Positions 3,552 to 29,670 of a stretch of 29,670 nucleotides of DNA are shown piece by piece. This DNA is from a virus. The notes under the pieces are model-generated. The model was not told the DNA's origin. It saw nothing but the letters and a program-made list of their open reading frames with translations, and ran no database searches. Numbering within the stretch: the stretch's first letter is position 1; every line of letters starts with the position of its first letter. The translations under genes and the position numbers were made by a program. Where the stretch lies: positions 1 through 29,670 of the IMG/VR virus record IMGVR_UViG_3300043466_000253; one strand, written 5' to 3'.

Positions 3552-3645
3552 GGTGATGTCTTCCAACCGGGTGGAAATTCCTGCTGGTTGGTGGGCTGCT
3601 GATGTTCCAGAAGACACCGGGGAAATCCCGGCGGGAAGTCCATAA
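3400..3645 (+). CDS. Small lipoprotein (outer-spanin-like candidate)
   Basis: This frame could start earlier (ATG at 3370), but the GTG at 3400 is preferred because AAGGA lies 9 nt upstream (3387-3391). It also gives a perfect signal: a basic start (VKT), a hydrophobic core LILMLGAFVTAS and the lipobox-like V-G-G-C. The mature 81-residue product would begin at that Cys and continues NSTVILVPPGTPVQLAEPVK, ending in an acidic Asp/Glu/Pro tail. Small phage lipoproteins with a V-P-P-G-T-P-V-x-L-A-E-P-V segment are familiar near lysis genes. An outer-membrane role such as an o-spanin is possible but unproven. It overlaps the preceding frame by 152 bases, and a strong terminator follows it. Confidence 0.6.
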   Translation: MKTLILMLGAFVTASVGGCNSTVILVPPGTPVQLAEPVKARVFVVQKDGTKVMSSNRVEIPAGWWAADVPEDTGEIPAGSP

Positions 3646-3673
3646 CATCCCCTTTAACTCCGGACTTCCCCTT

Positions 3674-3706
3674 GAGCCCATACGGTTTATTCCGGTGGGC
3701 TCTTTT
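3674..3706 (+). terminator. Rho-independent terminator before the capsid gene
   Basis: GAGCCCA (3674-3680) pairs with TGGGCTC (3696-3702), with an inner CGG/CCG, and four T residues follow. It separates the portal-scaffold-lipoprotein group from the capsid gene. Partial termination or a processed end here would let capsid mRNA be made separately at higher level. Confidence 0.75.
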
Positions 3707-3826
3707 CATTTCGTGGCTTTGGATGGGCCATGAAAAGGCTAAGGAATCTCGGCCCCTTGCGAGGGACAACCTTGAGGACTGGCTATTACAACCATCTATC
3801 GTGTCTCATACATAGGATTTTTTCTC
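3707..3826 (+). promoter_or_regulatory. Capsid leader region, candidate phage promoter
   Basis: This is a 120-base gap between the terminator and the capsid ATG, far longer than other gaps in the late region. The most abundant virion protein follows a terminator, so a promoter is expected here. I see no good TTGACA/TATAAT pair. A stretch at about 3780-3803 (ending C-T-A-T-C-G-T-G) is loosely similar to the repeated 22-mer at 25352 and 25435, which could mean a phage-polymerase promoter. That match is weak. Upstream of the ATG there is only AGGA followed by a T-run. Confidence 0.3.
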
Positions 3827-4897
3827 ATGGCACTTTTTAATTCGCAGCCGTCGCGTATCGGCCAGTCGAACCTTGCGGGCGATGTCGATGCTCTTTTCCT
3901 GAAGGTCTTCAGCGGTGAAATCATCACCACCTTTGAAGAAAACAATGTGATGATGCCGCTGCACCGTGTTCGCACGATCTCCAGCGGTAAGTCGGCCCAG
4001 TTCCCCCTCACGGGTACGGCTGGTGCTGGTTACCACACCCCGGGTGAGAGCCTGCTCTCGACCCCCGCAACGCTGATTACGGCTGGCGGTGGTTCGTATC
4101 CGGCGACTGGTTCTGATTCCAAGTACCTCAAGAAGATCCGTCACGCTGAAAAGCAGATCTTTATTGACGATGTCCTTGTTTCCTCGGTGTTCGTTGCGGA
4201 CATCGATGAGATGAAGAACCACTACGATGTCCGTTCGATCTATTCGACGGAAATTGGTCGTGCGCTTGCTTACGCCGCCGACAAGGCCCTGCTCCGCACG
4301 GCCATCATCGGTGCCCGTAAGGGTACGGATCGCTTCGGCAACTCTGAGGCTCGTTACCTTGGTTCGACTAGCAATGCGGTTGGCACCACGGCTAATGACC
4401 TGACTGACACGCTTGTGGATATTGCTCAGAAGATGGACGAGAAGAATGTTCCGGCTAATGACCGTTACGCTATTCTCCCGCCTTCGGAGTACTACAAGTT
4501 GATCAGCGGCGATAGCGATGCCATCAACCGCGATTACGGCAACGACGGCAACGGTAGCCTTGCTAGCGGTGTTGTCATGTCGGTGTCGGGCATCCGCATC
4601 CTGAAGAGCAACCACCTGCCGACTGCCAACGAGTCTTCGTCGCAGGACGATCTCTTTGGTAACTCTGGTGTCAAGAACGACATCAGCGGCACTTCTGGTC
4701 ATGGCTACTCGGGTGCTAACTTCACCAACACCCGTGGCATCGTCTTCCAGCGCGAAGGTCTTGGCACGGTCAAGTTGATGGACCTGAGCGTCGAGAGCGA
4801 GTATGTCATGGAGCGCATGGGCACCCTCATGGTTGCCAAGTACGCTATGGGTCACAACACCCTGCGTGAAGAATGCCTCCACGAACTGACCACCTGA
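3827..4897 (+). CDS. Major capsid protein, T7 gp10-like
   Basis: This 356-residue protein has the form of T7-type HK97-fold major capsid proteins. It begins MALFNSQPSRIGQSNLAGD and has L-F-L-K-V-F-S-G-E (24-32). The segment RTISSGKSAQFPLTGTAGAG (49-68) follows, then I-D-D-V-L-V-S-S and a C-terminal Y-V-M-E-R-M-G-T-L-M-V-A-K-Y-A-M-G-H. The protein forms the icosahedral shell. It is isolated by a terminator on each side (3674 and 4925), which fits independent high expression, and its codon use is strongly biased, as expected. No frameshift site for a gp10B-type extension is evident, because the gene is followed directly by the terminator. Confidence 0.95.
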   Translation: MALFNSQPSRIGQSNLAGDVDALFLKVFSGEIITTFEENNVMMPLHRVRTISSGKSAQFPLTGTAGAGYHTPGESLLSTPATLITAGGGSYPATGSDSKYLKKIRHAEKQIFIDDVLVSSVFVADIDEMKNHYDVRSIYSTEIGRALAYAADKALLRTAIIGARKGTDRFGNSEARYLGSTSNAVGTTANDLTDTLVDIAQKMDEKNVPANDRYAILPPSEYYKLISGDSDAINRDYGNDGNGSLASGVVMSVSGIRILKSNHLPTANESSSQDDLFGNSGVKNDISGTSGHGYSGANFTNTRGIVFQREGLGTVKLMDLSVESEYVMERMGTLMVAKYAMGHNTLREECLHELTT

Positions 4898-9699: not shown

Positions 9700-12480
9700 A
9701 TGGCTAAAGCACGACCTAATCTTGGCGTAACTGCCCAACCAGTCAGCACCTTTATCCAGCCCAACCAGAATGCGGTGGCTGCGGAGTTGTATGACCAGCA
9801 AACCGTCAACAACGCCCTACAGTTTGCCGAAGCCTTTAGCAATCTGTCGGTGAGCGCGGCTCGTCTTGCTGGGGGCCTGAAGCAGGAATGGAACGAAGAA
9901 CAGGTCCAGCAGGGTATGGATCTGGTCAACAAGAGCCGGAAGTCTTACCAGCAATTGGTTCAGTCTGGTGAGATCAAGCCCACGGAGAACCCGTGGTTTG
10001 CCGTTGGTGCCCAGAAGGCCAGCGGATCCATTGAGGCCATGAAGGCCCGGGTTCACTTTGAGAGCCTGCTGGAGCAGAAGGTTGCTGAAGACCCGTCGTT
10101 CCTTGATGACCCCCGGGGCTTCGATGCCTTCGCCTACCAGTACACGCAGAATGTCAACCAGTTCATGGGCGATGCGTCGTACATGAGCAGGTCCTTCTAC
10201 GAGTCGTTCAATCCCTTCATGGGGACGATGCAGGCCAAGCATGAAGGCCGCGTCATTGAACACAACACCCAGAAGATCCTGACGGGGGTGGCTTCAGAGG
10301 TCCAGCGGGCGGCTCAAGATTGGACCAGTCCAAACCCAACGGTCAGCCAGCAGGCTCTAGGAACGCTTCAGACCCGTCTGGATGAGATGGTCAATCAGGG
10401 TGTCGCTTCTAACCGCGTCAATAATGCTGCTGTGGATGCGTTGGTTGAACTGATGGCGACCTCGGATGACCCCCGGGCTGCTCGGGAGATGTTCAATGCC
10501 ATTAAGTCTGGTACTGGTTCGCTGTCCAGCACTCAGTACGCCAAGACTCAGATGGCGATGAACGCCTCTAAGATCCAAGCCAACGACCTCCGGATGTCTG
10601 CCGAAGAATCAAAAGTTTTGGCAGCGCGGATTGAAAAGGATCTGACTCCACAAATCGTGTCTGGTGCAATAACTGTGGAGCAGGCCGAAGAAGCCCTTCG
10701 GGAAGACTTTGCTCAGGGCAAGGTGCGGATCAACGCAAACGAGCAAGAGTCCAAGATTGGCTACTTGCGTTCTTTCAGCGCGGCTGCTATTCGTGAGCGT
10801 GAGGCCCAAGTAAAGACAGAACAGAACAACGCTTTCTGGGAACTGGTTACTCTTGCAGCGGATACCGATGGTGTTGAGAACCTTGATACACGGCTTGCAG
10901 AACTCAAGCAGCGTGTTGGGGCTATCGGTCTAGACCCTGAGCAGTTGTATAGGGGCCGGGAATTGCTGGATCGGATTACCGAACAAGCAAAGAAAGATCG
11001 TGTACTGGTTACGGCAGACGCTCAAACCAACGAACTTTATCAGTTGGCCCTAGATGCCAAGAATGCACAAAGTGACGAAGAGGCTTCTGCGGCCCTTAAG
11101 AAGTATAAGAATCGTATTGAGACTCTCGGATTGGCTCCTGAGCAGCGGTTTAGGGCTGAGGAGATGTTTGCAAAGGTTCAAGATGATACCTTTGAAGCCC
11201 AGTCTATTAGGAACATCAATAACGCCACCACGATTCTCTGGAACGGTACTGGAAATGGCGACGGGATCCTGCCCACTCTGGACCGTGAAGTTCGTGAGTC
11301 CTTTAAGCCAAACAGCAACTTTGTTCCCGGATTCGCAGAAGCCCGCCAGCAGTACGATACCTACCTGACTCAGACCCTCGGCCTTACTGATCCTAACGAC
11401 ACTAAGTACAAGAAGGGCCTTACTCAAGCATATACGAAGATGCGGGATGCTCTGAAGCAGTACGAAACTGTGTACCTTCAGAAGGCCGCTACCCGCGAAG
11501 AAGCCGCATCAGTTAGGCAGCGATTCCTCGCTATGCGTATGAATCTTGCGACTGAGTTTGAGGATGCTCGGGATGTCGCTCCGGCCTTTAGAGGGCTCCT
11601 GAGCGAAATGAATCCACAGGTTGTGGAACGGGCTGGATCGGGTGAGGTTGGAGCGTTGCCATACACCGAAGACATGGTGATGGCTTATATGTTGGCTAAG
11701 GACAACAACCAAAATCTGTCCACGATTCTACCCGGCGGGGAAAACGGTAAGGCTCTGATTGCTCAACTGGACTATGCTGTGGACCGTATTCGGGCTGGAG
11801 AAAAGATCGGAGATGTGGCTCGGGATGTCTCTAGGTTGATGTCTTTCGGCGGCGTGTCCAAGATCGACTACTTCGATAAGATCAATCCTGTCAAGTGGAT
11901 GGATACTGATGGATCTGATCAACAGACTAGGGAAAACATTCGGGTATCATACGCAGAACTTAGGGAGGCCGTTGCGTCTACTTCTCGTTCTGGAGCCTTT
12001 GAGCCCGATGCTGGTACCTATCTCGACTACGAATACCGGAGACACTACGCAACGGAAGTAAGCAACAACCCCATGGCGGCTCGTAGTGCCCACAAGGTCG
12101 CTATGGACAAGGTCATGGAAGAGAATGTGTTCATCCGTGGCTCTCTGCTTCCGAAGCGAAACCTTGGTCCTAATCAGGATGAAATGTATCTTGAAGCGTG
12201 GCTCCGGGCCAACTATCCCAACAACCCCAATGCAACCTTGGTTGTCGTGTCGCCTCCGGGGGCAGATCAGGTCTTGATGGCTGTGCGTGAGAACGGAAAC
12301 GCCGTCACTAGCGGTCTTATCAGGGCTCAAGACATCAAGATGGATAATGCCCTGTTTGCTCAGACTGTTGATGAGATGCTGAGGGGAAAGACACCGCGTC
12401 TGCCTCCTTTGCTAATTAAAACTAAAGGACAGAGATCGTCGCTTCCGCTGTGGCTGGATGAGTGGCTATACGCTAACTAA
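9700..12480 (+). CDS. Internal virion protein C, T7 gp15-like
   Basis: I place the start at ATG 9700 (926 residues), six bases after the gp14 stop. The frame is open further upstream, to 9499, but that would overlap gp14 by about 200 bases. The protein starts MAKARPNLGVTAQPVSTF and is almost entirely alpha-helical and Gln/Ala/Glu-rich. It ends with a compact basic/proline segment (K-T-P-R-L-P-P-L-L-I-K-T-K-G-Q-R). Length, helix content and position fit T7 gp15 (747 residues), which forms the periplasmic tunnel of the ejectosome with gp14 and gp16. Sequence identity to gp15 is too low for me to name motifs, so the call rests on synteny and form. Confidence 0.8.
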   Translation: MAKARPNLGVTAQPVSTFIQPNQNAVAAELYDQQTVNNALQFAEAFSNLSVSAARLAGGLKQEWNEEQVQQGMDLVNKSRKSYQQLVQSGEIKPTENPWFAVGAQKASGSIEAMKARVHFESLLEQKVAEDPSFLDDPRGFDAFAYQYTQNVNQFMGDASYMSRSFYESFNPFMGTMQAKHEGRVIEHNTQKILTGVASEVQRAAQDWTSPNPTVSQQALGTLQTRLDEMVNQGVASNRVNNAAVDALVELMATSDDPRAAREMFNAIKSGTGSLSSTQYAKTQMAMNASKIQANDLRMSAEESKVLAARIEKDLTPQIVSGAITVEQAEEALREDFAQGKVRINANEQESKIGYLRSFSAAAIREREAQVKTEQNNAFWELVTLAADTDGVENLDTRLAELKQRVGAIGLDPEQLYRGRELLDRITEQAKKDRVLVTADAQTNELYQLALDAKNAQSDEEASAALKKYKNRIETLGLAPEQRFRAEEMFAKVQDDTFEAQSIRNINNATTILWNGTGNGDGILPTLDREVRESFKPNSNFVPGFAEARQQYDTYLTQTLGLTDPNDTKYKKGLTQAYTKMRDALKQYETVYLQKAATREEAASVRQRFLAMRMNLATEFEDARDVAPAFRGLLSEMNPQVVERAGSGEVGALPYTEDMVMAYMLAKDNNQNLSTILPGGENGKALIAQLDYAVDRIRAGEKIGDVARDVSRLMSFGGVSKIDYFDKINPVKWMDTDGSDQQTRENIRVSYAELREAVASTSRSGAFEPDAGTYLDYEYRRHYATEVSNNPMAARSAHKVAMDKVMEENVFIRGSLLPKRNLGPNQDEMYLEAWLRANYPNNPNATLVVVSPPGADQVLMAVRENGNAVTSGLIRAQDIKMDNALFAQTVDEMLRGKTPRLPPLLIKTKGQRSSLPLWLDEWLYAN

Positions 12481-23474: not shown

Positions 23475-23590
23475 TGCCAAAGAAAGTTGTCGAAGCCCTA
23501 GTGCGTAAGGGGATGTCCAAGGACAAGGCTTATGCCGTTGCCTATGGACAGGTCAAGAACCGACTCAAGGTCAAGAAGAAGGCCAAGTGA
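23474..23590 (+). CDS. 38-residue basic protein
   Basis: A very small frame, ATG 23474 to TGA 23588-23590, encodes MPKKVVEALVRKGMSKDKAY followed by A-V-A-Y-G-Q-V-K-N-R-L and a Lys-rich tail. It overlaps both neighbours by stop/start fusion (TAATG before, TGATG after). The segment V-x-x-L-V-x-K-G-M-S-K-x-K-A-Y-A resembles short helix-turn-helix-like phage peptides that I recall from marine viruses. The perfect fit between neighbours, with no other use for these 116 bases, is the main support. Confidence 0.65.
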   Translation: MPKKVVEALVRKGMSKDKAYAVAYGQVKNRLKVKKKAK

Positions 23591-23814
23591 TGTCTGATCG
23601 TGACTACAAAGAAGAATATCAAAAGTACCACGGTACTGAACGATACAAGAAAGACCGGGCTCATCGAAACAAGGTCCGCCGGATGATGATCCGGGAAGGC
23701 AAGGTCCGTAAGGGCGACGGTAAGGATATTGACCACAAGAACGGGAATCCCCGGGATAACCGTAGGTCAAATCTAAGGATCGTCCACCGATCAGTTAACC
23801 GCGCCAAGCACTAG
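23590..23814 (+). CDS. HNH endonuclease-like protein
   Basis: This 74-residue protein has a basic helical front (R-Y-K-K-D-R-A-H-R-N-K-V-R-R) and an HNH-type core: K-G-D-G-K-D-I-D-H-K-N-G-N (41-53), then D-N-R-R-S-N-L-R-I-V-H-R-S (56-68). His49, Asn57/61 and His66 are the expected active-site positions. Small HNH nucleases next to terminase genes often assist packaging or cleavage at genome ends. ATG 23590 overlaps the preceding stop (TGATG); a GTG one codon earlier is an alternative. The short length is normal for minimal phage HNH proteins. Confidence 0.75.
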   Translation: MSDRDYKEEYQKYHGTERYKKDRAHRNKVRRMMIREGKVRKGDGKDIDHKNGNPRDNRRSNLRIVHRSVNRAKH

Positions 23815-24436: not shown

Positions 24437-24451
24437 GTCTAGGGTCTAGAC
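24437..24451. repeat. GTCTAG-N3-CTAGAC palindrome, copy 1 (centre GGT)
   Basis: A 15-base interrupted palindrome with 6-base arms. It lies upstream of the first early promoter, about 100 bases before its -35 box. Confidence 0.9.
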
Positions 24452-24500
24452 GCCTGTCCCTCACTCGCCGTTTTCTTATCGGACTCACCCCTAGCACTCT

Positions 24501-24515
24501 GTCTAGACTCTAGAC
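24501..24515. repeat. GTCTAG-N3-CTAGAC palindrome, copy 2 (centre ACT)
   Basis: Same element, 64 bases after copy 1 and 37 bases before the -35 box at 24553, a typical position for an upstream regulatory site. Confidence 0.9.
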
Positions 24516-24552
24516 GCCGGACTCACTCGTGGAAAAAAACTTGCCAATGCGC

Positions 24553-24581
24553 TTGACTTGAGCCGAAGGGTAGGCTATTCT
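24553..24581 (+). promoter_or_regulatory. Sigma70-like early promoter P1
   Basis: TTGACT (24553-24558), 17 bases, TATTCT (24576-24581). It is the first promoter after the presumed genome end and reads into the alanine-rich early gene at 24651. The leader (about 24588-24650) contains TTGTGTC twice (24584 and 24609). Confidence 0.75.
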
Positions 24582-24650
24582 CCTTGTGTCGGGCCACTTC
24601 CGCGTTGGTTGTGTCCCGGCACTCTCAAGGTTCAACGAAAGGAACCAACC

Positions 24651-25268
24651 ATGTCAGGAATCGCTACCACTCTCACCCCCGACGCAACCAAGGCCGACGC
24701 TATGACTGACGCGCAACGGACCGCGCATGAGGCCTTCACCAAGGCGGCTACCAAGGCATCCAAGGGCCTCGCCGCAGTGGGGACCGCCATGGTGTCCGCC
24801 TTGAAGGCGGGGTGTCATGTCGCTCTGTCGCTGGCCCCGCGCACCTACCTTACGCAGGTCCTGACCGCTGCAGGCATGGCCCGTTCATCCGCGGACAGCG
24901 CCGCAGCCATGGCCTTCACGCTCTGGCACGCTCCTGAGGCTGAGGGAATCCCGGCTGAAGGACTCCGGCTGCTGGCCCGTGCTGCCAAGGGCAAGGATCC
25001 GTCGGAAGTGTCGACTGCCATCCGCAACGCCGTCCGTGCGGCTCGTGCCAAGGCACCCATGCGCGCCGATGGCGGTGCGGGCGAGGCATCGGTGGCGGAC
25101 ATTCGCGCCATCGTGGCGGGACCGTCGACCGCCAAGGCACCAGCGCAGGAACTCGCTGATCTGGCCTATCGTCTCGCCAAGCGGGACGCGACCGTGGCCA
25201 AGGCCATGCTCCGGGATGCCGTGGCCATCATGGGAGACCGCGAAACGGAAGACTGCGCCGACGAATGA
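24651..25268 (+). CDS. First early gene: alanine-rich helical protein of unknown function
   Basis: This 205-residue protein starts at ATG 24651, with the early-type site CGAAAGGAA just upstream. The frame extends further 5' to 24558, but that part lies in the promoter and leader. It is very rich in Ala, with amphipathic helices (for example A-H-E-A-F-T-K-A-A-T-K-A-S-K-G-L-A-A-V) and a basic stretch R-N-A-V-R-A-A-R-A-K around 123-132. Codons are almost all G/C-ending, more so than neighbours. No family is recognised. Being first from the genome end, it holds the position of T7 gene 0.3 (anti-restriction), so host takeover or anti-defence is a reasonable guess only. It is closed by a palindrome and a strong terminator. 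Confidence 0.75.
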   Translation: MSGIATTLTPDATKADAMTDAQRTAHEAFTKAATKASKGLAAVGTAMVSALKAGCHVALSLAPRTYLTQVLTAAGMARSSADSAAAMAFTLWHAPEAEGIPAEGLRLLARAAKGKDPSEVSTAIRNAVRAARAKAPMRADGGAGEASVADIRAIVAGPSTAKAPAQELADLAYRLAKRDATVAKAMLRDAVAIMGDRETEDCADE

Positions 25269-25269
25269 T

Positions 25270-25284
25270 GTCTAGACTCTAGAC
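25270..25284. repeat. GTCTAG-N3-CTAGAC palindrome, copy 3 (centre ACT)
   Basis: Same element, starting two bases after the stop codon of the first early gene and about 11 bases before its terminator hairpin. Confidence 0.9.
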
Positions 25285-25295
25285 ACGGGATCGAC

Positions 25296-25330
25296 CCTCG
25301 GCCACCTTCGGGTGGTCGGGGGTTTTTTTA
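25296..25330 (+). terminator. Strong Rho-independent terminator with TTCG loop
   Basis: An 11-bp stem, left arm 25296-25306 (CCTCGGCCACC), loop TTCG (25307-25310), right arm 25311-25321 with G-U pairs, then seven T residues. A further T-rich stretch follows (25331-25347). It isolates the first early gene as its own transcription unit. Confidence 0.9.
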
Positions 25331-25351
25331 TTTTTGCGATTTTTTTTGGGC

Positions 25352-25373
25352 CGCTGTCATCACTACTATCATC
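25352..25373 (+). repeat. 22-base direct repeat, copy A
   Basis: An exact 22-base match to 25435-25456; its core reads TCATCACTACTATCATC. The two copies start 83 bases apart on the same strand. Size and CACTA-CTAT-like core are reminiscent of single-subunit RNA polymerase promoters, but this is only a resemblance. Confidence 0.85.
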
Positions 25374-25434
25374 AGGCCCGGTCGATTCCGGTCGATTCCA
25401 GACCGTCCCGACCCCAGTTCAATCCGGGTTCGTT

Positions 25435-25456
25435 CGCTGTCATCACTACTATCATC
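25435..25456 (+). repeat. 22-base direct repeat, copy B
   Basis: Identical to copy A at 25352-25373 over all 22 bases. Flanking bases differ apart from a G/C-rich segment that follows each copy (AGGCCC after A, GCGGGCC after B). Confidence 0.85.
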
Positions 25457-25514
25457 GCGGGCCGTCCCCATTTAGACACGCCAAGGACCGACCACAGTTG
25501 CTTTGGGTTGCCTG

Positions 25515-25534
25515 TAGTTATACCAGTCGTATCC
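25515..25534. repeat. TAGTTATACC...GTATCC dyad, copy 1
   Basis: Contains ATAC-N5-GTAT inside a conserved frame TAGTTATACC-N4-GTATCC. Two related copies follow at 25580 and 25674. Operator-like. Confidence 0.6.
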
Positions 25535-25557
25535 GTTTCTGTAATCAGAAACAACCT

Positions 25558-25572
25558 GTCTAGGGTCTAGAC
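25558..25572. repeat. GTCTAG-N3-CTAGAC palindrome, copy 4 (centre GGT)
   Basis: Same element, lying between two of the ATAC/GTAT dyads in the gene-free control region, not directly ahead of a gene. Confidence 0.9.
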
Positions 25573-25579
25573 ATCCCTT

Positions 25580-25599
25580 TAGTTATACCCTAGGTATCC
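25580..25599. repeat. TAGTTATACC...GTATCC dyad, copy 2
   Basis: Same frame as copy 1 with centre CTAG, giving ATACC-CTA-GGTAT, the most symmetric of the three. Confidence 0.6.
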
Positions 25600-25621
25600 T
25601 TATAAAGACCTCTATAAGGAT
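25596..25621. repeat. 9-base inverted repeat ATCCTTATA / TATAAGGAT
   Basis: Perfect arms at 25596-25604 and 25613-25621 with an 8-base spacer in AT-rich DNA. There is no T-run after it, so it is not a clear terminator. It could be an operator or an easily opened origin element. Confidence 0.7.
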
Positions 25622-25673
25622 CTATACAGGATTAGAGATAAGACTAGTAGAAGTACTACTGAAGTCAACTCTT

Positions 25674-25692
25674 TAGTTACTCTATGGTATCC
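25674..25692. repeat. TAGTTA...GTATCC dyad, copy 3 (diverged)
   Basis: TAGTTAC then GGTATCC, one base shorter than copies 1 and 2 and less symmetric. Confidence 0.45.
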
Positions 25693-25744
25693 AACCTGTA
25701 GACCCATAGGTAATCCAAAGTTTACCCTCACTATTCTTGGGGTC

Positions 25745-25773
25745 TTGACATGGTCATTCCTTTCTGATACCAT
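25745..25773 (+). promoter_or_regulatory. Sigma70-like early promoter P2 (extended -10)
   Basis: TTGACA (25745-25750), 17 bases, TACCAT (25768-25773), preceded by TGA, which gives the TGn extended -10 motif. It reads into the gene at 25861 after an 80-base leader. Confidence 0.8.
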
Positions 25774-25791
25774 TCCGTTGTTGGAGATTGT

Positions 25792-25804
25792 GTTCATTGT
25801 GAAC
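25792..25804. promoter_or_regulatory. Dyad GTTCA-TTG-TGAAC in the P2 leader
   Basis: A perfect 5-base inverted repeat 18 bases downstream of the -10 box, so near +12 to +24. Operator-like. It is unrelated in sequence to the dyads at the other promoters. Confidence 0.5.
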
Positions 25805-25823
25805 CCACTCTTCAGCACCCTCT

Positions 25824-25838
25824 GTCTAGGGTCTAGAC
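25824..25838. repeat. GTCTAG-N3-CTAGAC palindrome, copy 5 (centre GGT)
   Basis: Same element within the transcribed leader, ending 22 bases before the ATG at 25861 and just ahead of the CGAAAGGAAA ribosome binding site. Confidence 0.92.
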
Positions 25839-25860
25839 AGTTTCCACCGAAAGGAAAGCC

Positions 25861-26220
25861 ATGAAGACTTGGATGAACCTGATTGCCCGTGACCTGTGGG
25901 TTGCCGCTCTGCGCTCCGGGAAGTACAAGCAGGGAACCCGGAAACTGGTCCGGGACACGATTGAGCCGGGTACCTGCGAGTTCTGTGCCCTTGGTGTTCT
26001 CTGCGAGGTGTACTGCGACGAAGTCGAAGACATCAGGAACCGCAACAACCCATTCCGGCGGTCATACGGTGCGATTGAGGCCACGACGATCCCGCCCGCG
26101 GAAGTGCTTGAGTGGGCAGGCATGACTAACGGCTTTACAGATTATGTTGCCCGTGTGAACGATGGCTACGGCTGCAAGTTTGACGAAATCGCTCTGATTG
26201 TCGAACACGCCACCAAGTGA
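25861..26220 (+). CDS. Small conserved phage protein with W-x-x-A-L-R-S-G-x-Y-x-Q-G and C-x-x-C-x-L-G-V-L-C motifs
   Basis: This 119-residue early protein has D-L-W-V-A-A-L-R-S-G-K-Y-K-Q-G (11-25), then C-E-F-C-A-L-G-V-L-C-E-V-Y (39-51). It ends with an N-D-G-Y-G-C-K-F-D-E-I-A segment (100-111). Phage and bacterial proteins with W-x-x-A-L-R-S-G-x-Y-x-Q-G and C-C-L-G-V-L-C have this layout, but no function is established that I know of. The Cys cluster here is C-x2-C-x5-C. The start is set by CGAAAGGAAA before the ATG, downstream of promoter P2 and palindrome copy 5. It probably is a host-takeover or anti-defence protein by position only. Confidence 0.7.
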   Translation: MKTWMNLIARDLWVAALRSGKYKQGTRKLVRDTIEPGTCEFCALGVLCEVYCDEVEDIRNRNNPFRRSYGAIEATTIPPAEVLEWAGMTNGFTDYVARVNDGYGCKFDEIALIVEHATK

Positions 26221-26232
26221 TCTCTGGTCGGT

Positions 26233-26247
26233 GTCTAGGGTCTAGAC
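26233..26247. repeat. GTCTAG-N3-CTAGAC palindrome, copy 6 (centre GGT)
   Basis: Same element between the genes at 25861 and 26295. A degenerate copy follows one base later, forming a tandem pair. Confidence 0.92.
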
Positions 26248-26248
26248 G

Positions 26249-26263
26249 GTCTAGGCCCTAGGC
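26249..26263. repeat. Degenerate GTCTAG-N3-CTAGgC copy (centre GCC)
   Basis: GTCTAGGCCCTAGGC matches the element except for one arm base (A to G). Its centre is 16 bases from that of copy 6, about 1.5 helical turns. Confidence 0.6.
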
Positions 26264-26294
26264 ACCACCAAACTCAACCCGAAAGGAAAGCACC

Positions 26295-26927
26295 ATGAAG
26301 CACTATGTGATCGCCACCGCAATCGTCCTGTCCGTCTTCTTCTTCACCCTGATGGACGCTAGCCCATGGATCACCGTGGGATTCGTCGGGATCTTCACCA
26401 CCATGCTGGTGTTCCATTGTGACCGCCAACAGGAGCGGCAGAACGCCTTGGAGGAGCGCATAGATGAAATGGGGTGGGCTGAAGAGCAGATTGCCCGTCT
26501 GAACAAGGGCGGGCTCATCGGGTCAGGCCCGGGGGAAGAGAATGCGGAGGACCTGATGTCGGCATGGGACACCATGAGCAACGAACTCAAGGCCCTGACC
26601 GCCCCAAGGCGAACCGGATGGGTGGTTGCGTGGATCGACTCGTCGGGACGGGAGTTCAGCCAAACCGTATATGCCACGACGCAACACGAGGCATATGAAG
26701 TCGCCCTCGACTGTTACGCCGAGAGGCGGAATGTTTCACCGTTCCGATACGATGGGGTCTATGTGTTCAGGCTGTACCGCGAAGAGACTGTTCTTCCCTC
26801 AATCCATCAGAGCATCCGGGCCCACAATCCGCCCGAGGCGGACGGAATGCCCGCGCTTGCCGACTTCGCCGCGCAGATGGAATACCTGACCGCCTATCAG
26901 GGAGGCAAGAAGTTCAAGCAACCCTGA
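26295..26927 (+). CDS. Early membrane protein of unknown function
   Basis: This 210-residue protein has two N-terminal hydrophobic segments (about 4-20 and 26-42: YVIATAIVLSVFFFTLM and ITVGFVGIFTTMLVF). A charged coiled-coil-like stretch follows (D-R-Q-Q-E-R-Q-N-A-L-E-E-R-I-D-E-M). Next is a soluble domain with a W-V-V-A-W-I-D-S-S-G-R-E-F-S strand and a Y-E-V-A-L-D-C-Y-A-E helix (about 110-150). The second domain resembles a small alpha/beta fold, but I cannot name it. The likely topology is N-in, hairpin in the inner membrane, soluble domain in the cytoplasm. CGAAAGGAAAG precedes the ATG. No own promoter is seen, so it is co-transcribed from P2. Confidence 0.65.
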   Translation: MKHYVIATAIVLSVFFFTLMDASPWITVGFVGIFTTMLVFHCDRQQERQNALEERIDEMGWAEEQIARLNKGGLIGSGPGEENAEDLMSAWDTMSNELKALTAPRRTGWVVAWIDSSGREFSQTVYATTQHEAYEVALDCYAERRNVSPFRYDGVYVFRLYREETVLPSIHQSIRAHNPPEADGMPALADFAAQMEYLTAYQGGKKFKQP

Positions 26928-26932
26928 GGCCC

Positions 26933-26961
26933 TTGACACGGTCCCCACTTGCTGATATTAT
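26933..26961 (+). promoter_or_regulatory. Sigma70-like early promoter P3
   Basis: TTGACA (26933-26938), 17 bases, TATTAT (26956-26961): the best consensus match in the window. It drives the gene at 27032. Confidence 0.88.
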
Positions 26962-26974
26962 TCCGTAAGTGGGG
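26943..26974. promoter_or_regulatory. Operator-like dyad CCCCACTT / AAGTGGGG across P3
   Basis: Perfect 8-base arms at 26943-26950 and 26967-26974 flank the -10 box. A dimer bound here would block polymerase, so repression is likely. The transcript would start inside the right arm, so an RNA hairpin is not possible. Confidence 0.75.
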
Positions 26975-26998
26975 ATCGTTTCTCCATCAACCCGACCT

Positions 26999-27013
26999 GT
27001 CTAGAGTCTAGAC
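26999..27013. repeat. GTCTAG-N3-CTAGAC palindrome, copy 7 (centre AGT)
   Basis: Same element in the P3 leader, about 30 bases after the predicted start and 18 bases before the ATG at 27032. AGT is the complement of the ACT centre of copies 2 and 3. Confidence 0.92.
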
Positions 27014-27031
27014 ACAACCGAAAGGAAACCC

Positions 27032-27820
27032 ATGCTTACTGTTCTGCCTGTTCTGCAACCAGTTGCCCCCAAGTGGGCAGAAATCTCCGCCGCAGCCAAC
27101 CGCGCCTACGACTATATCGTCGAGTCAGGCAACAACCCGCTGCGTGTCAACTACCACAGCGGTCTACTGACCAAGCCCGGAGCAAACACCAAACTCTCCA
27201 AGGCATCGCCCCTGCCCATTTGGGGGCTGACCTTGGCCCCTGCGGGGGCATCGGGGTACCAGTTGTGCCCGTGGCGTAGCCCGGAATGCGAAGCCGCTTG
27301 CCTTGGCATCACCGCAGGTCGCTCCAAGTTCTCCAATGTGCAGCAAGCCCGGATCAACAAGACGAGATATCTCATGGAGGACCCACTCAACTTCTACTGT
27401 GAACTTTTCCATGAGTTGCAGACACGGGCCCGCCGTGGAGGTCCCTTCGCAATGCGGTGGAATGTCCTATCGGATATCCCCATCGAATCCGTGTGTGCCC
27501 GTGCCCTGAACCTGCCCACGGTCAACTACGACTACACCAAATCGTATCTACGGGCATTGGCCTCGTTGTCCCGGAAGAACTACAGGCTGACCCTGTCTTA
27601 CTCCGGCCACAACTTGGAGGAATGCCTCGACTACTTGGATCGTGGGGGCAATGTCGCCATGGTCTTCAGGGATGTCCCATCGTCGTGGGATCGGTTCCGT
27701 GTGATCAACGGTGACGAATCCGACGCTCGTTGGACCGACCCGCAGGGTTGCATCGTCGGTCTTCGGGCCAAGGGCAACATCAAGGACTCCGTGTTCGTTA
27801 TGAATCGTTCTCGCGTCTAA
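27032..27820 (+). CDS. GP88/DUF7227-like phage protein with Cys cluster, probable barrel fold
   Basis: This 262-residue protein has features I associate with phage GP88/DUF7227-type proteins. G-L-T-L-A-P-A-G-A-S-G (65-75) is followed by a cluster C79-x6-C86-x3-C90 (L-C-P-W-R-S-P-E-C-E-A-A-C-L). Then come regularly spaced strand motifs: M-R-W-N-V-L-S-D-I (141-149), V-N-Y-D-Y-T-K (164-170), Y-R-L-T-L-S-Y-S (184-191) and G-N-V-A-M-V-F (206-212). Strand-helix units of 20-25 residues suggest a TIM-barrel-like enzyme, and the cysteines could bind Fe-S or Zn. Function is unknown. It has its own strong promoter (P3), operator dyad and palindrome copy, so it is individually controlled. Confidence 0.7.
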   Translation: MLTVLPVLQPVAPKWAEISAAANRAYDYIVESGNNPLRVNYHSGLLTKPGANTKLSKASPLPIWGLTLAPAGASGYQLCPWRSPECEAACLGITAGRSKFSNVQQARINKTRYLMEDPLNFYCELFHELQTRARRGGPFAMRWNVLSDIPIESVCARALNLPTVNYDYTKSYLRALASLSRKNYRLTLSYSGHNLEECLDYLDRGGNVAMVFRDVPSSWDRFRVINGDESDARWTDPQGCIVGLRAKGNIKDSVFVMNRSRV

Positions 27821-27855
27821 GACATCTCTCTTCTCTTTTCTGAAAGGAACCCACA

Positions 27856-28161
27856 ATGGGAATGGATCAGACACTAACTGCGTACACCCCGTCCGGAAAC
27901 TTCCAGATGCACTTGAGGAAAGCCTACTGGCTCGACTCATGGCTCCGGGAACGGTGTCCCACGGGCTACAGCAGCGACGGCTGTTGGGCCAACTGCGAGA
28001 TCACCCCGGGACTCGTCATTGAGTTGCGCCGGGCGGTGTGGGATGACTACTACAACGGTGAGTTCAGGGATGGCCCATGCTTGCAAACCATTCAGGCTAT
28101 GGGATGGTTGGAGGCACACGATGCCATGGGCCACACCATCAAGTATCACATGGACTGCTGA
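27856..28161 (+). CDS. Small conserved phage protein (MGMDQTL...YWLDSW type)
   Basis: This 101-residue protein starts MGMDQTLTAYTPSG and has R-K-A-Y-W-L-D-S-W-L (21-30). It looks related to the broad phage family beginning M-G-L-D-M-Y-L with Y-W-R-K-A-N-x-I-H-x-W-F, whose function is unknown. Five cysteines are spread along the chain. TGAAAGGAACCC precedes the ATG. There is no palindrome or promoter in the 35-base gap before it, so it is presumably expressed with the gene at 27032. Confidence 0.62.
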   Translation: MGMDQTLTAYTPSGNFQMHLRKAYWLDSWLRERCPTGYSSDGCWANCEITPGLVIELRRAVWDDYYNGEFRDGPCLQTIQAMGWLEAHDAMGHTIKYHMDC

Positions 28162-28164
28162 ACC

Positions 28165-28179
28165 GTCTAGACCCTAGAC
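28165..28179. repeat. GTCTAG-N3-CTAGAC palindrome, copy 8 (centre ACC, inverted)
   Basis: Same element in the opposite orientation to the GGT copies, four bases after the preceding stop and 21 bases before the ATG at 28201. Confidence 0.92.
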
Positions 28180-28200
28180 ACAACCACGAAAGGAAACGAC

Positions 28201-28467
28201 ATGAACTACATCCCCTCATCAAACGACAAGGTGCATTGGTATCGCCACGCTGAAGGTCATCGGATTTACTTCAAGAACGGATGGGCAGTTTCCATAATCC
28301 CCGGCTGCAATGGGGACACCATGGAGTGTGCCGTGATCCCGCCATACGATGGTGAAATGGATATCCAACTGCGGACACCCGATGAACTGCCCGTGTTCCT
28401 TGCCGGAATCCAGTCCCGCACCATCGAACCAATGACTCTGTCGGCCAACAACACCTTCACGGACTGA
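28201..28467 (+). CDS. Small early protein of unknown function
   Basis: This 88-residue protein has H-R-I-Y-F-K-N-G-W-A-V-S-I-I-P (20-34), followed by an acidic E-C-A-V-I-P segment and a C-terminal L-R-T-P-D-E-L-P-V-F-L-A-G-I-Q. Small phage proteins with a F-x-N-G-W-x-V-S-V strand and a following turn with G-x-x-x-x-E-x-A-V are common in early regions, with no known role. CGAAAGGAAACG precedes the ATG. The next gene starts three bases after its stop. Confidence 0.62.
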   Translation: MNYIPSSNDKVHWYRHAEGHRIYFKNGWAVSIIPGCNGDTMECAVIPPYDGEMDIQLRTPDELPVFLAGIQSRTIEPMTLSANNTFTD

Positions 28468-28470
28468 CCA

Positions 28471-28656
28471 ATGACCAACGACAGCAACAACATTGAAACC
28501 ATCAACATCACCCCCAAGTGGGAAGCCGTGATCGACCTGTTCCTCATCGTCCTGAAGCCGCAATGCGACTTCGATACCCTGCAATATGTCCGCAGGGAAC
28601 TGAAGCGAATCGCGGTGGTCATCGATGAAACCAACGACACCATCAAGGGGGCTTGA
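28471..28656 (+). CDS. Small early protein (N-I-T-P-x-W-E type)
   Basis: This 61-residue protein has I-N-I-T-P-K-W-E-A-V-I-D-L-F-L (11-25), then Y-V-R-R-E-L-K-R-I-A-V-V-I-D (39-52). This matches a small phage helical family with I-x-P-x-W-E near the start and E-L-x-R-M-A near the end. Function is unknown. It starts three bases after the previous stop, without a clear separate binding site or palindrome, so translation is probably coupled. The -35 box of promoter P4 begins inside its last codons. Confidence 0.6.
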   Translation: MTNDSNNIETINITPKWEAVIDLFLIVLKPQCDFDTLQYVRRELKRIAVVIDETNDTIKGA

Positions 28657-28681
28657 CACAAGCAATCGTTTCGGTTAGCAT
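28653..28681 (+). promoter_or_regulatory. Sigma70-like early promoter P4
   Basis: TTGACA (28653-28658), 17 bases, TAGCAT (28676-28681). The -35 is embedded in the dyad GCTTG-ACA-CAAGC (28651-28663), and the 12-mer TTGACACAAGCA is shared with P5. It reads into the gene at 28756. Confidence 0.8.
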
Positions 28682-28688
28682 TGTCCTA

Positions 28689-28703
28689 GGTGGAAGTTCC
28701 ACC
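28689..28703. promoter_or_regulatory. Dyad GGTGGAA-G-TTCCACC at the P4 start
   Basis: A perfect 7-base inverted repeat beginning at about the predicted transcription start of P4. It is an operator, or a 5' hairpin that could stabilise the transcript. Confidence 0.65.
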
Positions 28704-28712
28704 AACCCTCCT

Positions 28713-28727
28713 GTCTAGGGTCTAGAC
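28713..28727. repeat. GTCTAG-N3-CTAGAC palindrome, copy 9 (centre GGT)
   Basis: Same element in the P4 leader, about 25 bases after the predicted start and 28 bases before the ATG at 28756. Confidence 0.92.
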
Positions 28728-28755
28728 AGATCCCAGTTCTCGAAAGGAAAGTGAA

Positions 28756-29235
28756 ATGGAAATCCCAGTCAGCATCGTTCTCTCCCCCGAAGCACTCGCT
28801 AGCCTCCGGGGATCCACGGGTCCGACCCTGTTCGACAAGTCCGAAAGCATCAACAACCTGACCGACAATCAGTACTTCATCAACGAAGTCGCCAGTCGGA
28901 TCCACCCCCGGGAAATCGCGGAACAAATCGACACCGATGACCTCGCGGAAGAGATGACCCGCAAGGTCGAACTGGACGCTGGTGAAATCGCGGGCTACAT
29001 CGATGTCGAGTCCGTTGCGGGCTACATCGACCCCGAAGAGATCGCAAACCACTTCGATGCAGACGACATCGCCTCACGCATCGACATGGAAGATATTGTC
29101 GAGTCCCTGCCCATGGGCCGTCTGGCTAACGCCTTGGCGAAGCAGATCGTGGAGAACCCATCGCTTCGGGAAGCCTTGGTCGAGTCGTTCATCAACCGCC
29201 TGACCCACAGCCTGCTCCCCAAGAGCAGCACCTAA
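28756..29235 (+). CDS. Acidic nonapeptide-repeat early protein
   Basis: This 159-residue acidic protein contains seven 9-residue repeats of consensus I-D-x-E-D-I-A-x-x. They are IHPREIAEQ (49-57), IDTDDLAEE (58-66), a six-residue break, LDAGEIAGY (73-81), IDVESVAGY (82-90), IDPEEIANH (91-99), FDADDIASR (100-108) and IDMEDIVES (109-117). The repeats would form short amphipathic turns or helices giving an elongated acidic rod. The C-terminus (118-159) is helical and less acidic. No catalytic motif is seen. The acidity would suit nucleic-acid mimicry or binding to a basic host protein, but this is speculation. It is driven by P4 with a palindrome and CGAAAGGAAAG before the ATG. Confidence 0.7.
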   Translation: MEIPVSIVLSPEALASLRGSTGPTLFDKSESINNLTDNQYFINEVASRIHPREIAEQIDTDDLAEEMTRKVELDAGEIAGYIDVESVAGYIDPEEIANHFDADDIASRIDMEDIVESLPMGRLANALAKQIVENPSLREALVESFINRLTHSLLPKSST

Positions 29236-29288
29236 ACCTTTCGGTGGCTGGGCCGCGCATAGCCGAAGCAACGCGGTTTCTCATCGAC

Positions 29289-29317
29289 TTGACACAAGCA
29301 AAGGAATCCACTAGTAT
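29289..29317 (+). promoter_or_regulatory. Sigma70-like early promoter P5 (leaderless output)
   Basis: TTGACA (29289-29294), 17 bases, TAGTAT (29312-29317). The next gene's ATG is at 29324, six bases after the -10, so transcription should start at or within a base or two of the start codon. CTTGACACAAG is shared with P4. Confidence 0.85.
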
Positions 29318-29323
29318 ACCACT

Positions 29324-29524
29324 ATGGAATCAGAAAGCCCATGTACCGTTTCCGATGCCCTGAACACCGCGTGGGTGGGATGGGCAAAGGAAGATCTCGC
29401 CGTGTCCTACTACTGGGGCCTAGTAGCCCTCCATACATCCGAGTCGTTTGGCCTGTACCTGACCGATTCGGAAGCCGTGTTTCTCTCTGTCGCAACTTCT
29501 AACCCGCCCGAAGCAACCGTCTAG
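29324..29524 (+). CDS. Small early protein, probably translated from a leaderless mRNA
   Basis: This 66-residue protein (MESESPCTVSDALNTAWVGW, then K-E-D-L-A-V-S-Y-Y-W-G-L) is not recognised. Bases before the ATG (C-T-A-G-T-A-T-A-C-C-A-C-T) lack any Shine-Dalgarno sequence and contain the -10 box of P5, so the mRNA would have essentially no leader. All other early genes have a GAAAGGAA-type site, except the coupled gene at 28471. The TAG stop codon lies inside palindrome copy 10 (GTC-TAG-ACC...). The next possible in-frame start is well downstream. Alternative: it is not a gene and P5 drives the next one, but the good frame and position favour a gene. Confidence 0.6.
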   Translation: MESESPCTVSDALNTAWVGWAKEDLAVSYYWGLVALHTSESFGLYLTDSEAVFLSVATSNPPEATV

Positions 29525-29533
29525 ACCCTAGAC
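29519..29533. repeat. GTCTAG-N3-CTAGAC palindrome, copy 10 (centre ACC, inverted)
   Basis: Same element. It contains the stop codon of the preceding gene and ends 21 bases before the ATG at 29555. Confidence 0.92.
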
Positions 29534-29554: not shown

Positions 29555-29670
29555 ATGTCCAAGACCTTCACCACCGTGTCCGACCTCTCCCGCATCCAGA
29601 TGCCCGCTGCTACCCGCACTTGGCAACCCGTGTCTCAAGTCCAGTTGTTCAACTCCATGTGTGATGCGAT
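29555..29670 (+). CDS. Start of an early gene running out of the window (DUF932-like N-terminus?)
   Basis: ATG 29555 is preceded by TTCAAGGAACT and palindrome copy 10. The frame stays open to the window edge, 38 residues: MSKTFTTVSDLSRIQMPAAT, then R-T-W-Q-P-V-S-Q-V-Q-L-F-N-S. The A-T-R-T-W-Q-P-V segment followed by a helix recalls the N-terminus of phage DUF932-type proteins (A-T-x-T-x-x-P-V-P-H), but only the beginning is visible, so the family is a guess. Confidence 0.6.
   Translation, partial: MSKTFTTVSDLSRIQMPAATRTWQPVSQVQLFNSMCDA

Follow-up and report, generated by a model that had tools for sequence, protein, structure and literature searches.

We analyzed a 29,670-nucleotide stretch of a metagenomic virus (IMG/VR record IMGVR_UViG_3300043466_000253; the whole stretch is called the window) in which an earlier note, made from the letters alone, had noticed ten copies of a 15-bp palindrome, GTCTAG-N3-CTAGAC, among the early genes at one end. 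Our findings suggest that these palindromes are operators, recognized as duplex DNA by a homodimeric phage regulator that silences the early region, and we consider this reading reasonably probable. The likeliest regulator is encoded by gene 1, which comes first among the early genes. Related phages carry arrays at the same junctions with a palindrome particular to each lineage, and in one pair of near-identical genomes all of the operators differ and gene 1 is replaced.

Early-region palindromes in the window and its relatives

Judging from its head-tail adaptor, capsid, tail-tube, internal virion, and terminase genes and from their order, the window is part of an Autographiviridae-like (T7-like) metagenomic phage. 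It stops short of the phage RNA polymerase gene, which is found in relatives of the window together with genes for single-stranded DNA-binding protein, primase/helicase, and DNA polymerase. No cultured relative was found; the nearest polymerases in INPHARED are ~35% identical, and INPHARED contains no match for gene 1 or for the first 25 kb of the window. All ten sites listed in the earlier note are present, the first at 24437 and the last at 29519, and no exact copy occurs elsewhere in the window. The preceding 24 kb holds isolated cores inside genes (GTCTAGAC at 10928 and 17857), much as the note had described. With up to two mismatches allowed, a single extra site appeared in the whole window (26249, one mismatch), compared with a chance expectation averaging 0.83, with a maximum of 3, in dinucleotide shuffles. 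The probability that ten of ten sites would fall in the last 5.47 kb of the window is ~5e-8.

Six of the ten sites lead a gene, ending 18-47 bp before its ATG and accompanied by a separate ribosome site, GAAAGGAA. The other four sites (24437, 24501, 25270, and 25558) are not gene leaders: the first two precede the earliest promoter of the region, the third is between the gene 1 stop codon and the terminator, and the fourth is within a non-coding stretch. Sites also lie on both sides of promoters, as the note had claimed. The promoters at 25745, 26933, and 28653 (all promoter calls are matches to a sigma-70-like consensus only) each precede a site by roughly 25-50 bp, and the promoter at 24553 lies 3′ of sites. 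The arms GTCTAG are invariant in sites of the window type, and the center is found in either orientation.

A complete relative (G007, 39.1 kb with a 127-base overlap of its ends) carries 14 exact sites, all within 27148-35918; the remaining 30 kb is free of them (chance ~1e-9). These sites span the region from just 5′ of gene 1 through just 3′ of the polymerase gene, where one site starts 45 bp ahead of the annotated start and another lies 4 bp past the stop codon. In three further relatives (G009, G012, and G016), sites are mostly or wholly early. The motif is thus not equally dense in late genes, and syntenic junctions retain their sites in relatives; neither of the two outcomes that the earlier note had named as refuting its proposal was observed.

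The phenomenon extends across the clade. Loci found by polymerase similarity were searched de novo for repeated gapped palindromes, a type being accepted with at least five copies; the same search returned essentially nothing on Markov-shuffled genomes. Approximately twenty palindrome types were detected; each lineage has a single type, and the junctions that carry it correspond between lineages. They include TTCTAGA-N2-TCTAGAA, GTCTAAG-N-CTTAGAC, TATAGA-N-TCTATA, TGAAAC-N3-GTTTCA, GTCCAA-N3-TTGGAC, CTTGTCATGACAAG, CTGGGACGTCCCAG, GTTTAC-N4-GTAAAC, TCGGAGA-N-TCTCCGA, and GTTGGGA-N-TCCCAAC. Several types with a common CTAG core may intergrade, whereas some twelve appear clearly distinct in origin from one another. 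Recurrent positions are ~45-70 bp 5′ of the polymerase gene, directly past its stop codon, and 5′ of a DUF932 gene. In four lineages (L098, L151, L152, and L123), the polymerase gene itself contains an operator at ~nt 1311, in the same codons and with three specificities, and the residue changes there fit the operator sequence. No operator occupies that place in L126, L099, and L102.

Two lineages, L044 and L045, link the operators to gene 1. Their polymerases are identical at 779 of 787 residues (99%), and they have in common a 6.1-kb block with 96.2% identity. All of their operators differ, the palindrome being GTCTAAGNCTTAGAC in L044 and TATAGANTCTATA in L045 (the corresponding word in the window is GTCTAGRSYCTAGAC), and no cross-type site was found within 1-2 mismatches. 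At several junctions, both flanks are near-identical and the palindrome alone is altered. Gene 1 is replaced, the two versions having no blastp similarity; hhalign assigned that of L045 to the same family with 95% probability. In G012, G016, and L094, gene 1 and the operators likewise differ, and the other early genes are 58-92% identical. L046 and L048 have a common operator, and their versions of gene 1 are 84% identical. The window and G007 also have an operator in common; between them, the helix-turn-helix (HTH)-like stretch of gene 1 is identical at 15 of 31 positions, compared with 54 of 174 in the rest.

Gene 1, the first of the early genes, has sites 5′ and directly 3′ of it. Its structure model (pLDDT 85) is all-helical, with a predicted HTH-like helix pair at residues 63-73/78-93. 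Searches in Pfam and PHROGs and against PDB sequences and folds returned nothing useful, and the one viral fold match is an uncharacterized phage protein. From the operator and gene 1 comparisons across lineages, we infer that the gene 1 product is the operator binder; gene 1 is the best candidate regulator, although not the sole early gene that differs. Two other candidates for the specificity protein were rejected. A ribbon-helix-helix-like gene (G012 3591-3926, cluster 31) has the same N-terminal strand in G012 and L095, whose operators differ, and a 159-aa repetitive protein (cluster 1) is 89% identical in L044 and L045 despite their different operators.

Recognition and function of the sites

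Recognition of the sites probably takes place on double-stranded DNA, because the central base pair is kept without regard to strand, near-miss sites lose RNA pairing, and one palindrome type lacks a hairpin. Where the center is a single base, its pair is fixed and its strand free (C6/G6 in L152, G5/C5 in L098, G6/C4 in L045, and G3/C6 in L085), as expected of a symmetric DNA binder. Centers of the window type read R-S-Y in 84 of 84 sites, most commonly GGT and its complement ACC, although these sites come from ten closely related contigs and are not independent. These properties make it improbable that the palindromes act in RNA, as leader hairpins bound by a protein or small RNA to control translation or mRNA processing in the manner of start-associated sequences. 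Such control would suit the location of most sites 18-47 bp 5′ of a start codon, and most types can form 6-8-bp hairpins. However, sites also lie 5′ of the first promoter and in the gap between stop codon and terminator, no stable RNA hairpin was found for the L045 type, and pairing is broken in 22 of 25 one-mismatch sites, so that wobble (G-U) pairs are not enriched. In the GTTTAC-type phages, a translational contribution is possible because the Shine-Dalgarno sequence sits in the palindrome center. L108, L110, L139, and L157 have palindromes (GTTTACAGGAGTAAAC) with the Shine-Dalgarno AGGAG at their center, ending ~2 bp ahead of start codons.

We propose that host RNA polymerase would make the gene 1 product at once, and that this product would bind all of the palindromic sites as a two-fold symmetric dimer. 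The bound regulator would block host polymerase at promoters with nearby sites and would form a roadblock at leader and intergenic sites and at those surrounding the gene for the phage RNA polymerase, leaving the early region silenced and the phage polymerase withheld. Because sites flank gene 1, the gene would also regulate itself. The pairing of regulator and operator would be specific to each lineage, as it is among heteroimmune phages. Binding is thus proposed to repress transcription: operators inside the polymerase gene and in leaders favor a roadblock or repressor acting on transcription by host polymerase. Positions alone cannot separate activation from repression, and sites 3′ of promoters might also serve activation, antitermination, or DNA partition. 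We regard these roles as distinctly unlikely given that leader sites just past promoters and intragenic polymerase sites suit roadblocks better. Partition sites, moreover, are normally clustered rather than placed one per gene junction.

Two further explanations fare worse. The palindrome and ribosome site could be a linker for recombination through which small early genes spread in cassette form, in line with the recombination system that the earlier note had entertained, and an extra G007 gene (29747-30133) does bring its own site. This is very unlikely, since linkers would not all change jointly in a near-identical genome, as the entire site set does in L045, and some sites are internal to the polymerase gene. 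The palindromes could also be promoters for the single-subunit phage polymerase: LUZ100 has phage-specific promoters just 5′ and just 3′ of its polymerase gene, where some of our sites also lie. Nevertheless, the L044 and L045 polymerases differ at 8 of 787 residues and their palindromes are unrelated, late genes have no sites, and T7-class promoters are not known to be palindromic. A search for repeated 18-mers in G007, G009, and G012 found the palindrome only and no convincing phage promoter. It is therefore scarcely credible that the palindromes are phage promoters.

The purpose of operator-based silencing may be lysogeny and immunity or an early shut-off in the lytic cycle, to which we give similar weight. 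Sister lineages make lysogeny a live reading, because a tyrosine integrase (or its active-site motif) is encoded directly 5′ of the polymerase gene in L097, L098, L102, L105, L106, L116, L118-L121, L123, L151, and L152. In the window's own lineage, by contrast, the neighborhood of the polymerase gene yielded no integrase, and in G007, G009, G012, and G016 neither that neighborhood nor the early region yielded one. The latter absence, together with the prophage scan described below, would fit a purely lytic timer, in which gene 1 ends early transcription by host polymerase once the phage polymerase takes over and neither lysogeny nor immunity is involved. We think it rather unlikely that this is the whole explanation. 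Sites directly precede the polymerase gene, so that the shut-off would limit the polymerase itself; the rapid diversification of specificities resembles that of heteroimmunity groups; and the sister lineages with integrase genes have the same architecture.

Several observations weigh against silencing by a gene 1 repressor. The operator is identical in the window and G007 although gene 1 is just 39% identical, and early genes besides gene 1 also differ between L044 and L045, namely a gene of 65 aa (cluster 3) and a handful of small genes particular to one lineage; several array-bearing lineages yielded no member of cluster 3. The DNA-binding identity of gene 1 receives no database or fold match, hhalign detected no homology for gene 1 of lineages beyond the A2 family, and the AlphaFold model for gene 1 of G012 was of unusably low quality. 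No array was detected at the thresholds used in L072, L118, L136, and L146, each with >4 kb upstream. The ribosome site held in the center of GTTTAC-type palindromes also fits translational control. Finally, one pattern scan of limited sensitivity across ~85,000 genomes found no prophage, its sole match being one contig of a metagenome-assembled genome (MAG).

Layout of the early region

The promoters, the terminator, and the genes from gene 1 through the 66-aa gene are on the + strand. The early region is preceded by a small HNH-endonuclease-like gene (23587-23814); L044 and L045 each have a likely counterpart of 74 aa, with 100% identity between the two. Site 1 (GTCTAGGGTCTAGAC, 24437-24451) is ~100 bp 5′ of the first early promoter and is kept in G007 (27148) and G006 (24553). 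Site 2 (GTCTAGACTCTAGAC, 24501-24515) is found in G006 (24617) and absent from G007. It is 5′ of the consensus-matched gene 1 promoter (TTGACT-17-TATTCT, 24553-24581), which is followed by gene 1 itself, encoding the 205-aa candidate operator-binding regulator (24651-25268). Site 3 (25270-25284) begins one base past the gene 1 stop codon, ahead of an intrinsic terminator with a 14-bp stem and a T run (25293-25324). Site 4 (25558-25572; G007 counterpart at 28276) occupies non-coding DNA between this terminator and the next promoter match (TTGACA-17-TACCAT, 25745-25773).

Site 5 (25824-25838) has that promoter on one side and the ribosome site on the other, 22 bp from the ATG of a small 119-aa gene (25861-26220, phrog_18067). 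Site 6 (26233-26247) and a degenerate site with one mismatch (GTCTAGGCCCTAGGC, 26249-26263), in whose place relatives have an exact GTCTAGGCCCTAGAC, precede a 210-aa gene (26295-26927). A promoter match (TTGACA-17-TATTAT, 26933-26961) and site 7 (26999-27013), in the leader 18 bp from the ATG, precede a GP88-like gene (27032-27820, phrog_1617) whose G007 orthologue matches Pfam GP88. The 5′ junction of the following 101-aa gene (27856-28161) bears a site in G007 (30940) and none in the window. Site 8 (28165-28179) lies 21 bp from the ATG of an 88-aa gene (28201-28467).

Another promoter match (TTGACA-17-TAGCAT, 28653-28681) and site 9 (28713-28727), in the leader 28 bp from the ATG, precede the gene for the repetitive helical protein of 159 aa (cluster 1, 28756-29235). 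This protein has many DIA-x-ID-like repeats, occurs in 34 of 48 related early regions, and is conserved 5′ of the DUF932 gene. The last promoter match (TTGACA-17-TAGTAT, 29289-29317) is followed by a 66-aa gene (29324-29524), the 3′ end of which overlaps site 10 (29519-29533), ahead of a DUF932-type gene (ATG at 29555; orthologue DUF932). Among relatives, G012 has a GTTGTTGC-rich low-complexity region 5′ of gene 1 (positions 1-1000), with seven operators within 700 bp. L112 (JAIXOQ010000009.1) is a contig of 13 kb that belongs to a Proteobacteria MAG and has GTCTAGA-N-TCTAGAC sites and a related polymerase; its MAG membership is a possible but weak hint of the host.

Relation to known arrays and lysogeny switches

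The earlier note had likened the array to mycobacteriophage stoperators while calling its sequence different and symmetric. Cluster A stoperators (L5 and Bxb1) are asymmetric 13-mers, bound by monomers, oriented with transcription, and distributed genome-wide (PMC6550527, PMC9283540). The analogy holds for anatomy: both arrays comprise many mostly intergenic sites, some 3′ of promoters, and ours extends to leaders, the stop-terminator gap, and both flanks of the polymerase gene. Stoperators block elongation, and their sequences track repressor divergence, in keeping with the lineage-specific site spectrum seen here. In contrast, the present sites are symmetric, orientation-neutral, and confined to the early region of a T7-like phage, as the note's distinction implied, and there is no homologous repressor. 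The cluster A repressor has HTH and stoperator domains; the gene 1 model has an HTH-like helix pair, with no fold or family match.

Other actinobacteriophage arrays show partial likenesses. Cluster O phages (Corndog) carry TGTTCGG-N3-CCGAACA, 17 bp long, in 34 copies genome-wide, approximately one third of them intragenic (PMC4351075). This too is a perfect two-arm palindrome with a 3-bp center in both orientations and many copies, but it has one specificity, belongs to a long flexible-tail phage, and has no proposed linked regulator, unlike our early-only sites with GTCTAG arms. Microbacterium cluster EG phages (Hyperion) have ten copies of two short inverted motifs 14-21 bp 5′ of start codons (PMC7302621), a similar number and placement in one cluster of another phage type. 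In cluster K, the asymmetric start-associated sequence (SAS), which overlaps the ribosome site, presumably acts in translation (PMC3203893). The SAS and its extended form (ESAS) likewise form a repeated motif ahead of many small genes, with extended inverted repeats that vary by subcluster, but the window sites lie 18-47 bp 5′ of starts, occur away from genes, and are separate from the ribosome site. The actinobacterial phage phiC31 has conserved inverted-repeat operators, mostly in its early region, that are bound by its repressor; it belongs to a different phage class, and the sequence differs.

Among T7-like phages, a MarR-based lysogeny switch has been proposed in LUZ100, where control is still hypothetical (PMC10134795). 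The MarR-integrase modules of HTVC109P and LUZ100 resemble the present system in phage type, in a regulator 5′ of the polymerase gene, and in proposed lysogeny control. However, no MarR gene was recognized in the present clade, and no comparable array was found in the cultured T7-like phages scanned (pelagiphages, CRP-171, Rhizobium phage Pasto, and HTVC019P). LUZ100 (L159), a phage to which temperate features have been ascribed, itself has GCGCA-N5-TGCGC at 386, 587, and 6699. Two of the three copies coincide with its host promoters P1 and P2, and the third closely follows the polymerase stop codon; they are possibly operators of its MarR-like regulator. The actinobacteriophage arrays mean that this kind of array is already known. 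We found no earlier description of such arrays in T7-like phages in the open-access papers searched, where we likewise did not find the T7-like setting, the many specificities, the concerted switching, and the linkage to gene 1 described; these aspects appear to be new.

T7-like phages are textbook lytic phages, yet some have integrases without an identified repressor, and homologues of known repressors were sought in T7-like cyanophages and not found (PMC8776855). We tentatively suggest that the clade possesses a heteroimmunity-type system in which a hypervariable first-gene repressor and 10-18 matching operators gate every early gene and the polymerase, with approximately twenty specificities that switch jointly; such a system would fill the place of the repressor switch still missing for temperate T7-like phages. 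The operator array and its linked first gene provide concrete, testable protein-DNA pairs, and many orthogonal pairs of repressor and operator might be drawn from them. They also present a natural experiment in which ten or more dispersed sites and a regulator change specificity jointly, and they may help account for the repeats present in cluster K phages and in Corndog and Hyperion.

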